Positions 27,703 through 41,391 of a stretch of 41,581 bases of DNA are shown piece after piece. Source of the DNA: a virus. Position 1 is the stretch's first letter; each line of letters begins with the position of its first letter. The stretch is from IMG/VR virus record IMGVR_UViG_3300024999_000201, positions 1 to 41,581 of that record. One strand, 5' to 3'. Both the position numbers and the translations under genes were made by a program. The notes beneath the pieces were generated by a model, which did not search any database, was not told the origin of the DNA, and worked only from the letters and a program-made list of their open reading frames with translations.

Positions 27703-27940
27703 TTCTTTTAATGGTTTTAGCATTTTTTAGCATCCTTATAAATTCTGGGTCTATGGAATAAAACTTTTTAAGTAATTTCTTTATACCCTCTTCGGTAGCT
27801 TTCGGGTCTGCGTACATATTCCCCATGGCAAAAAGGATTTCTTTTAACCGGGTATCTTCTTCAATAGTATGCAAAGCCATAGTTTCGGCATACTCTATGG
27901 CTTGCAGTAAATCTTTTTTAGTTTTAGGCTGGTAAGTCAT
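27695..27940 (-). CDS. Hypothetical 81-residue protein
   Basis: Helical, starting MTYQPKTKKDLLQAIEYAE. It overlaps the SSB-like gene end by 17 bases, so is probably co-translated with it. Not recognised; the operon context suggests a replication or recombination accessory. Confidence 0.6.
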   Translation of the reverse strand: MTYQPKTKKDLLQAIEYAETMALHTIEEDTRLKEILFAMGNMYADPKATEEGIKKLLKKFYSIDPEFIRMLKNAKTIKRNG

Positions 27941-28640
27941 CGAAGTTAACCTCGATATCGTCTAATGTATCTGAGACTTTTTCCTTGCCTTTAGCTTCGG
28001 CTTTAGCTATTGTTTCGGATTCCTCTAAACCATCTTTTTTAAGCAGGTAGTCTTTCCAGGAAGCTTGCATAGCTTCAAGCTCTTTTCTGTATTCTTTTGT
28101 TATTTCTGCTGTATCTGTTCTGAACCCGGCGTAGCTGTAAGTTACACTCTTGCCATTTGGTAATGTGGCTGTTCTTGACTTTGCTTCGGCTACAATAAGG
28201 AGGTTATAAATACCCCCGGTTGCTTTTCCCGTCTTCACGAGCTGGGGAAGTACCTGATTTCTGAAGTCAAAAAGTGCCGTGGAGCGAAGAGACATCATAA
28301 ATATTTCCTGAGTGTCTTCGTTTACTCCAACCAAGGCGTAGACCTGATCCATCTTAGTTTCATCGTTAAAATTGGGTGCTTCTCTATGTGCTAAGGCTAA
28401 AACCCTAAGCTTAAGTTCCTTGTAGAACTCCTTGGTAGCATTATTTAAGAATACGTTGTTTGGACAATCTGAGCCGTCTGCAAGTATTCTATCTTCGGGT
28501 TTGGTCATAGGACCTACGAACTTATAGAATGGAAGCGGTAAATCTGATACGGGTACGTTTTCAAGCCCTGAGATTCCTATTCCTCCATTATCGGTAGTAG
28601 TAAGACCGGTTTCTTGTTTTTTAACTAAATCTTTAGTCAT
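27924..28640 (-). CDS. Putative single-strand DNA-binding / recombination-associated protein
   Basis: 238 residues. The central part (about 40-175) is beta-rich and reminiscent of phage OB-fold proteins (LRVLALAHREAPNF, YALVGVNEDTQEIFMMSLRS, GGIYNLLIVAEAKS). It ends with KVSDTLDDIEVNFDDLPA, a flexible acidic tail like the partner-binding tip of SSB proteins, though without the usual final Phe. It sits in an operon with small zinc and HTH proteins, downstream of the promoter at 29727-29754. I infer an SSB-like role; a recombination-mediator or single-strand annealing partner is also possible. Confidence 0.5.
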   Translation of the reverse strand: MTKDLVKKQETGLTTTDNGGIGISGLENVPVSDLPLPFYKFVGPMTKPEDRILADGSDCPNNVFLNNATKEFYKELKLRVLALAHREAPNFNDETKMDQVYALVGVNEDTQEIFMMSLRSTALFDFRNQVLPQLVKTGKATGGIYNLLIVAEAKSRTATLPNGKSVTYSYAGFRTDTAEITKEYRKELEAMQASWKDYLLKKDGLEESETIAKAEAKGKEKVSDTLDDIEVNFDDLPA

Positions 28641-39931: not shown

Positions 39932-40112
39932 TATTATTTCCCTTCAATCTGATATACCACTCAGATTTTAAACTATTAATATTTTGGTACACATAAAGCT
40001 TTAAGTCTTTCTGATCTACTAAATAAAAGGTTGACTTGCGTTTCCAAACTTCAACAGTAGTTTTCCTATCCTGCAAAACATTATAAGCCTCTGCAAATAC
40101 TCCTCCGTGCAT
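39924..40112 (-). CDS. Hypothetical 62-residue protein
   Basis: Beta-rich and basic (KTTVEVWKRKSTFYLVDQKD). Starts in a one-base overlap with the stop of the preceding gene and overlaps the HD gene start. Function unknown. Confidence 0.6.
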   Translation of the reverse strand: MHGGVFAEAYNVLQDRKTTVEVWKRKSTFYLVDQKDLKLYVYQNINSLKSEWYIRLKGNNND

Positions 40113-40306
40113 TATTCCAGTCTTTTCGCTATTGTTATGTCCTCATTCCCCCTACCCCCTTTAGTTTGTGAAAAGTTAATTATTGTTTTCCCCAGTATCC
40201 ACAACTTGAAAGGCTTGAAGTAAACTATAACCAAACTTCTACGACTTCCGTCTTTATACTTTTTTGTTATTTCAATGTCAGGTCTCTTTGCACTTCCTGT
40301 AATCAT
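40112..40306 (-). CDS. Hypothetical 64-residue protein containing SQTKGG
   Basis: Begins MITGSAKRPDIEITKKYKDG, beta-rich, basic. Near its end the repeat at 40155-40171 encodes SQTKGG, as in other genes of this train, but here the frame continues for 13 more residues (RGNEDITIAKRLE). After the repeat's ribosome site an ATG opens only ATG AGG ACA TAA, possibly the scar of a lost gene. Confidence 0.6.
   Translation of the reverse strand: MITGSAKRPDIEITKKYKDGSRRSLVIVYFKPFKLWILGKTIINFSQTKGGRGNEDITIAKRLE
40155..40171 (-). repeat. SD-containing repeat TCACAAACTAAAGGGGG, copy 2
   Basis: Exact copy on the minus strand, inside the 40112-40306 gene and encoding SQTKGG. The only copy not at a gene end. 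Confidence 0.85.
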
Positions 40307-40482
40307 TTATCTGTACCCCCTTTAGTTTGTGACCTATATCTCCAATCAGACCTAGAATATTGAGAACACACGGAACACCTTGTCCTTCCAAGCCTTTTAG
40401 CTATAACAGGGGGGGCTACTTTGCCGTAAAGTTCCCCAAGTATCTTAAAATCCCCATCTGACCATTTCTTCCAAGTTTTCAT
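40303..40482 (-). CDS. 59-residue Myb/SANT- or GcrA-like helix-turn-helix protein
   Basis: Read from the sequence: ATG 40480-40482 behind the repeat's AAAGGGGG, TGA at 40303-40305 overlapping the next ATG. It starts MKTWKKWSDGDFKILGEL and continues YGKVAPPVIAKRLGRTRCSV, the Trp ... Ala-x-x-Leu-Gly-Arg pattern of small Myb/SANT-like or GcrA-type DNA-binding domains. Ends RSQTKGGTDK, nearly the same tail as the upstream gene. Likely a small DNA-binding regulator. Confidence 0.65.
   Translation of the reverse strand: MKTWKKWSDGDFKILGELYGKVAPPVIAKRLGRTRCSVCSQYSRSDWRYRSQTKGGTDK
40316..40332 (-). repeat. SD-containing repeat TCACAAACTAAAGGGGG, copy 3
   Basis: Encodes SQTKGG at the end of the HTH gene and supplies the ribosome site for the start at 40306. 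With flanking bases it matches copy 4 over 30 positions (40303-40332 versus 40479-40508) with one difference. Confidence 0.85.
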
Positions 40483-40724
40483 TTGTCTGTACCCCCTTTA
40501 GTTTGTGAAGGATATAGTCCCAAATCAACACCCTTCGCACCTTCTTGGGAAGCACCTAAATCAATACCCCAACCTGTGTAGGTTAACTGCTCGTTCTCAA
40601 AGTAAATATGTATATTGCCTATCTCAAGCCTATATCCCTTACCAAAAGGTTTTAACTGCATAGGCATACCCATTTCGTACAACTCATCAAAGTATTCTGC
40701 TATTGTGTTTTCTATTTCTTTCAT
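40479..40724 (-). CDS. Hypothetical 81-residue protein ending SQTKGGTDK
   Basis: Begins MKEIENTIAEYFDELYEMG; an alpha/beta protein with KGYRLEIGNIHIYFENEQLTY. Start overlaps the upstream stop (ATGA) and its end carries repeat copy 4. AAAGGAGG before the start comes from repeat copy 5. Unknown function. Confidence 0.65.
   Translation of the reverse strand: MKEIENTIAEYFDELYEMGMPMQLKPFGKGYRLEIGNIHIYFENEQLTYTGWGIDLGASQEGAKGVDLGLYPSQTKGGTDK
40492..40508 (-). repeat. SD-containing repeat TCACAAACTAAAGGGGG, copy 4
   Basis: Gene-end copy encoding SQTKGG; ribosome site for the HTH gene start at 40482. Confidence 0.85.
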
Positions 40725-40948
40725 TCTTGTCCTCCTTTAGTTTGTGAAAGGAAGTTTTCTGCTAACTTTTTTAGATGTTCTATTCCTCTTGGGGCGTTGA
40801 TTTTCTTGGGTAGGTAGTCAATGTATCCCATTACCATATCCTTTCTGTCTTTCTCTAGGTAACTTACAAGCACCCACCAAAACCTTTCATCTTTCACCAT
40901 AAAACCAAACTTACTTCTAATGTCTTCTACTAACTGCTCTGTTGTCAT
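40721..40948 (-). CDS. Hypothetical 75-residue protein ending SQTKGGQE
   Basis: Begins MTTEQLVEDIRSKFGF; helical with WWVLVSYLEKDRKDMV. Overlaps both neighbours by four bases. Its C-terminus is encoded by repeat copy 5. Confidence 0.65.
   Translation of the reverse strand: MTTEQLVEDIRSKFGFMVKDERFWWVLVSYLEKDRKDMVMGYIDYLPKKINAPRGIEHLKKLAENFLSQTKGGQE
40731..40747 (-). repeat. SD-containing repeat TCACAAACTAAAGGAGG, copy 5
   Basis: One base from the other copies, and that base makes it a perfect AGGAGG ribosome site. Encodes SQTKGG. Confidence 0.85.
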
Positions 40949-41391
40949 TTTTTAACCCCTGCTAAACTTTCTACTGTTGGCTCTCCGTACTTTTCTTTAT
41001 CCCCGATAGCTTCAGCACACCTTTTATTTATTCTGCATAAGGCGTTGTAGTTATCCCTATTAACATCGCTGTCTAAAACCGTACTGTTGTAAAGTGCTTT
41101 GGACATTTCCCATATTTCCTTTGCAAACCTCCTCACCGCTTCTTCCTTGGTTTTTTTGCTTTTGGCGTTTATAAACTCCTCAACATACGAAACAGTGTCG
41201 TTACCTTCTTCATCGCACCATTTTGCCATTTTCATATTTTCTTCTTCTATCGCTTCTTCTCTTTCCTTTTGTATTAGCTTGAATGCCCACCGTAAAAAGA
41301 CAGCTATTTCAGGGCTTATTTCAATGCCCGTAAGTTCAAACCACTTATTATGTAGTGTTACTTCCTCTATCTGTTCATCTATATTTTTCAT
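40945..41391 (-). CDS. Hypothetical 148-residue helical protein
   Basis: Begins MKNIDEQIEEVTLHNKWFEL, sharing its first residues with the left-edge gene (1-257), then EISPEIAVFLRWAFKLIQKEREEAIEEENMKMAKW, a charged helical body. GGAGAA precedes the ATG. No family recognised; small-phage accessory type often found in such operons. Confidence 0.65.
   Translation of the reverse strand: MKNIDEQIEEVTLHNKWFELTGIEISPEIAVFLRWAFKLIQKEREEAIEEENMKMAKWCDEEGNDTVSYVEEFINAKSKKTKEEAVRRFAKEIWEMSKALYNSTVLDSDVNRDNYNALCRINKRCAEAIGDKEKYGEPTVESLAGVKK

Follow-up and report, generated by a model that had tools for sequence, protein, structure and literature searches.

A Repeated Sequence at the Boundaries of Small Phage Genes Suggests Gene Swapping in Frame

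A 17-bp element, here named J1, recurs at the boundaries of small genes in the window (the whole 41,581-nt stretch of viral DNA analyzed) and in related viral contigs. With a probability of roughly two in three, J1 is a conserved boundary sequence for the homologous exchange of small gene cassettes, which doubles as a translation-coupling site. The observations behind this reading are the following: where J1 is located and what it does there; that it forms a tail on proteins of 11 unrelated groups; that its DNA, and not only its peptide, is conserved; that gene content changes at its copies; and that it keeps its place in a conserved order of short joints. Together, they suggest an in-frame swapping of small genes by way of repeated joints.

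J1 Copies and Their Two Roles in the Window

The name J1 covers the 17-mer TCACAAACTAAAGGGGG, which occurs four times, and its one-base variant TCACAAACTAAAGGAGG (carrying GGAGG), which occurs once (table 1). All five copies were found where the original prediction had placed them, on one strand (minus) and in the coding direction. A scan allowing three mismatches gave these five matches and no others in the window; 100 dinucleotide shuffles gave a mean of 0.13 and a maximum of 1, which rules out a chance origin of the array copies.

Each of the five copies reads SQTKGG in frame within an ORF. Those at 40731, 40492, and 40316 end a gene and stand 6–10 nt ahead of the next ATG, the 3′ half of J1 (AAAGGRGGT) being the Shine-Dalgarno site of the following gene, with nine conserved bases (TCACAAACT) lying outside it. 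The partner gene of the copy at 13 falls beyond the contig end. It can be seen in a related contig (L005), which is 100% identical to positions 1–746 of the window and continues after this copy with an N6/N4 DNA methyltransferase gene (start L005:740). Thus, the expectation that four out of the five copies close one gene and supply the ribosome site of the next one was borne out, three times directly and once through L005. The fifth copy, at 40155, sits inside a gene and is followed by a dead frame of three codons and a stop, as had been described.

The window genes that carry the tail are mutually unrelated, in agreement with the earlier claim, and the closest pair of copies (40303–40332 and 40479–40508) does match over 29 of 30 bases (96.7%). 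No RNA fold common to the J1 copies was detected, with z-scores from −1.9 to +1.5 over seven copies.

The left end of the window lies 12 bases past the copy at 13, so that the contig ends at a J1 copy as noted before. A 125-bp stretch is duplicated near both contig ends (632–756 and 41457–41581, 97.6% identity). Because of this duplication, the contig probably broke at repeats; a circular or permuted genome, in which a gap separates the contig ends, is possible.

Table 1. Joints and Genes of the Arrays, in Window Coordinates
Feature	Position	Strand	Remark
J1: tail of gene 3–257, ribosome site of next gene beyond contig end	13–29	−	methyltransferase seen in L005
J1 within ORF 40112–40306	40155–40171	−	
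J1: tail of gene 40303–40482, ribosome site of gene 40112–40306	40316–40332	−	
J1: tail of gene 40479–40724, ribosome site of gene 40303–40482	40492–40508	−	
J1, GGAGG variant: tail of gene 40721–40948, ribosome site of gene 40479–40724	40731–40747	−	
Dead frame ATG AGG ACA TAA	40135–40146	−	same junction opens a 65-aa gene in L005
Tail-bearing gene	3–257	−	large MKxIDEQIEE/IQKEREEAV family
64-aa ORF	40112–40306	−	internal J1 copy
59-aa gene, J1 tail	40303–40482	−	weak matches to phage regulator families
81-aa gene, J1 tail	40479–40724	−	no family match
75-aa gene, J1 tail	40721–40948	−	
148-aa gene, large family	40945–41391	−	N-part common (95–97% DNA) to L014 and G011 genes with other C-parts
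J2, intragenic joint	41252–41272	−	IQKEREEA
J2 variant, intragenic joint	124–144	−	QKERGEA
J3 joint	254–284	−	KTKQKETE tail and ribosome site
J4 joint	402–423	−	LQPTKDS
J4 joint	626–647	−	LKPTKDS
J5 joint, gene start	41362–41391	−	MKNIDEQIEE
J5 joint, gene start	228–257	−	MKIIDEQIEE

Spread of J1 among Viral Contigs

Two sets of names refer to the same records (G001 = L004, G002 = L005, G003 = L007, G004 = L009, G005 = L011, G006 = L012, G007 = L014, G008 = L017, G009 = L018, G010 = L019, G011 = L021, and G012 = L023), W stands for the reverse complement of the window, and the array coordinates of the records are counted along the gene-reading direction.

The search of related contigs for the 17-mer, which had been put forward as a check, returned 24 stretches among the 2.9 million viral contigs scanned, about half of them by chance. 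The J1 matches rejected as chance were located in the interior of GroES (L002, L006, L013, L015, and L016), in GC-rich sequence (L001, L022, and L024), and in cellular contigs (L160 and L161). The true relatives are about a dozen other viral contigs with arrays of small genes akin to those of the window. Relaxing the motif to a 16-mer gave mostly chance matches and added two distant contigs to the relatives (L124 and L132). No relatives came from a search based on the terminase, the known phages giving only remote terminase matches (22–32% identity).

Leaving out duplicate records, there are 25 J1 copies in all. The claim that J1 always stands in the SQTKGG frame holds for the window and fails among the relatives, since J1 is the in-frame SQTKGG 3′ end of a gene in 23 of the 25. 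The first exception (G006, array coordinate 293) has a longer upstream ORF in another frame, which stops at a TAA inside J1. In the second (L014:688), the upstream gene stops just before J1.

By blastp, the proteins with the tail form 11 groups that have no links between them, one large family and ten others. In the methyltransferase, the Pfam domain ends at residue 209 and SQTKGG begins at residue 222 of 242; its best phage homologues mostly align only to residue 211–216, a few of them to 220–230. Since the domain and most of these homologues end before SQTKGG, the tail of this protein is, judging from the alignments, an addition.

An anti-defense reading of the cassettes was dropped, as PADLOC gave no match except the methyltransferase. 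The accessory array of one relative also contains a tandem repeat (SAVRSAVYSAV repeats) within a gene with a DUF6745 domain (L014:1425–1666).

Gene Content on the Two Sides of J1

Homology between genomes starts or ends at J1, with four endpoints no more than 3 nt away from it. G001 and G002 share 98.9% identity over 4352 bp from J1 −2, and the genes upstream of this point are unrelated. A 229-bp cassette (95.2%) is common to G001 and G007 from J1 +3 to the next J1 +0, both outer sides being different. G011 and G012 share the gene before J1 at 87% and diverge at +2. None of the 276 testable copy pairs has both neighbors in common. The strong pairs that share exactly one neighbor are four (two upstream only and two downstream only), and a further 19 upstream-only pairs are weaker and go back to parts of the large gene family. 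Within 5 nt of J1, which makes up 2.9% of the arrays, lie 4 of the 14 array homology endpoints (P about 6e-4, a rough value, as the endpoints were collected by hand).

The dead frame after the copy at 40155 and the junction at G002:1403 have the same one-base deletion (TAGG in place of TAAGG), by which the usual stop is lost; the genes differ on both sides, which fits the reuse of one junction. In G002 this junction precedes the 65-aa gene, so that the proposed loss of a gene after 40155 is plausible rather than proven.

The alignment of the loci, therefore, did show gene content differing at J1 copies, and the relatives do not present a fixed gene order free of J1. These content changes support the predicted role of J1 as a joint for cassette exchange in frame, from which a crossover is what we infer, not what was observed. 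On the other side, the independent J1 junctions are few (four) and all come from metagenome contigs, and some junctions are at the starts of genes that have no J1 there (G012, upstream of 23647).

Ordered Joints in the Arrays

Of about six short joints (J1–J6), J1 occurs most often. The joints always lie on one strand, and shuffled sequence yields almost none of them. One of them, J2 (IQKEREEAV, ACAAAAGGAAAGAGAAGAAGC), is intragenic, lying in members of the large gene family. Up to J2, the N-parts of three genes (40945–41391 in the window, L014:2681, and G011:12173) are 95–97% identical; beyond it, they continue into three different C-parts. In the window gene, this N-terminal stretch spans 41252–41391, which points to the swapping of half-genes at J2. 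Both the window and L005 have J3 as coding sequence; in G001 it is located after the stop of a longer preceding ORF. The remaining joints (J4, J5, and J6) stand at other ends and starts of genes.

In scans with mismatches, the order J4-J3-J5-J2-J1-J6 was found, full or partial, in W, G001, G002, G008, and G011, and smaller parts of it elsewhere. Similar arrays with J4 and J3 and without J1 are found in L164 and L165. Isolated J1-like matches outside the arrays, with two or three mismatches (G001:20384, G012:12309, and G010:33173 and 36441), look like chance.

A wider proposal, speculative and distinctly doubtful, is that these phages keep, as a scaffold for shuffling, joints that are mostly coding and follow an ordered grammar (J4-J3-J5-J2-J1-J6). 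Related phages would then exchange whole genes and half-genes in frame through a recombinase suited to joints of 20–30 bp, as a continuing generator of accessory-gene diversity.

Mechanism and Alternative Explanations

In a chain of small, translationally coupled genes, J1 completes the coding sequence of one gene and provides the following gene with its ribosome site. By the proposed mechanism, a crossover inside two J1 copies could join any upstream cassette to any downstream one, because there are several copies per array and copies in many related phages, and would leave the frame, the ribosome site, and the coupling intact. Other joints at gene ends, at gene starts, and inside the IQKEREEAV family would serve likewise; as such joints also lie within genes, whole genes and half-genes would be exchanged in register. 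The crossover would proceed by homology within the joint (of RecA type or by single-strand annealing), and homologous crossover, rather than selection alone, would keep the joint conserved. A point against this is that the bases common to unrelated copies are often only 17–25, which is short for RecA. No recombinase was identified; the window encodes a RuvC-like resolvase (non-specific), an HNH endonuclease, and a DnaB helicase. A 238-aa protein (27924–28640) has an acidic C-terminal end (NFDDLPA), matches nothing in Pfam or PHROG, and is possibly a single-strand DNA-binding protein, a guess from its tail.

J1 could instead be only an extended ribosome-binding leader, like the start-associated sequences (SAS) of cluster K mycobacteriophages. 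The shared tail would then be a by-product of gene overlap, and illegitimate recombination with selection would have produced the mosaic boundaries, which would fall at J1 because nowhere but at gene ends would they be tolerated. AAAGGRGG is indeed present in all array copies, each of them shortly ahead of a start codon, similar leaders occur by chance in unrelated contigs (L008 and L020), and the SAS offer a precedent without known recombination (PMC3203893). However, a leader does not account for the nine conserved bases outside the Shine-Dalgarno site, for the same frame on 11 unrelated groups, or for J2, which is equally conserved inside genes and far from a start codon. This explanation, the main alternative, is, on balance, somewhat unlikely.

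Metagenome assemblers might also have fused different phages at a short repeat, in which case the junctions would be artefacts. All records are metagenome contigs, both ends of the window are in repeated sequence, and its left end stands just past a J1 copy, where L005 and L014 diverge. Nevertheless, at the informative junctions the paired sequences differ within or beside J1 (CAG/CAA, AAG/AAA, TAAGG/TAGG, and TCA/GCC), so the exact words shared across the breakpoints are short and a fusion is improbable. In addition, the three-copy array of G001 recurs under other IMG numbers, at 100% in G005 (2062 bases compared) and at 99.8% in G003. Artefacts are, therefore, a very improbable source of the junctions.

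A function of SQTKGG as a peptide tag (signal, degron, or binding motif), for which many phage proteins would be under selection, is hardly credible: the same peptide does stand in frame on 11 unrelated protein groups, but the silent positions are fixed as strongly as the others, a scan with all synonymous codons for SQTKGG gave no further family contig, two copies are not in this frame, and the residues that follow vary (KE, KGE, TDK, QE, RGNE, and others), so that SQTKGG is not the true C-terminus. In detail, the serine codon is TCA in all 23 in-frame copies, a codon used for 12% of the serines in the genes of the window, and the CAA, ACT, and AAA codons are nearly fixed. Because these silent codons are uniform and two copies lie outside the frame or after a stop, J1 is conserved as DNA and not as a peptide alone. 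As a caution, when small proteins without any relationship share a C-terminal peptide, it can be a trace left by a DNA joint and not a protein signal.

The preferred reading, homologous exchange at J1, touches on the long-standing question of whether phage mosaicism arises by homologous exchange at short boundaries or by random illegitimate recombination with selection (PMC3233612). The two models predict different junction spectra here, which can be counted in existing reads, since the boundaries can be named explicitly, recur in frame, and come from several metagenomes.

Similar Systems in Other Phages

The kind of system is already known from the SAS, the promoter early stem-loops (PeSLs) of T4-type phages, the conserved boundary sequences of mosaic phages, and the nin region of lambda. 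What differs here is that one sequence of 17–25 bp is reused at many boundaries, coding and acting as a ribosome site at once, and that it belongs to an ordered set with an intragenic joint.

The SAS (PMC3203893) are a 13-bp asymmetric repeat 3–7 bp before the starts of many unrelated non-structural genes, mostly in one orientation, with a Shine-Dalgarno core and extra conserved bases. J1 is likewise a ribosome-site repeat of one orientation before many unrelated genes, but its sequence differs from the SAS consensus GGGATAGGAGCCC. Unlike J1, the SAS are placed mostly in large intergenic gaps (>50 bp) and are not a shared coding tail; the passages of PMC3203893 on them report no gene exchange there.

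PeSLs (Arbiol 2010; Comeau 2014; in PMC4503421 and PMC3950731) resemble J1 as repeated regulatory cassettes between small accessory genes, tied to modular shuffling. Each is an intergenic promoter with a stem-loop, whereas J1 is a coding tail with a ribosome site and folds in no consistent way.

Conserved boundary sequences, or linkers, of mosaic phages have been proposed as a target of homologous recombination (PMC3233612). Like them, J1 is a short sequence that recurs where modules meet while the genes flanking it change, its 25 copies following 11 unrelated upstream protein groups and no pair sharing both neighbors. In contrast to them, it is coding in a set frame (23 of 25), carries a ribosome site, occurs several times per genome, and is part of the ordered joints.

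The nin region of lambda has been called a "chain of interlinked genes" (Kroger and Hobom 1982, quoted in PMC8022706). Small genes are tightly packed with ATGA overlaps in both systems, and the J1 arrays show the stop/start overlap (ATGA or close) and the ribosome site inside the upstream gene of a nin-type chain. Pfam and PHROG searches of the array genes gave no significant match naming a nin gene, and the nin junctions hold no repeat as long as the 17-mer, unlike the single sequence reused here. In lambda (L163; 41081, 41950, and 43040), the tails of NinB, NinC, and NinG (DRAA, REAA, and SEAA) are similar to one another and overlap the ribosome site of the following gene, which is the J1 theme in a shorter form.
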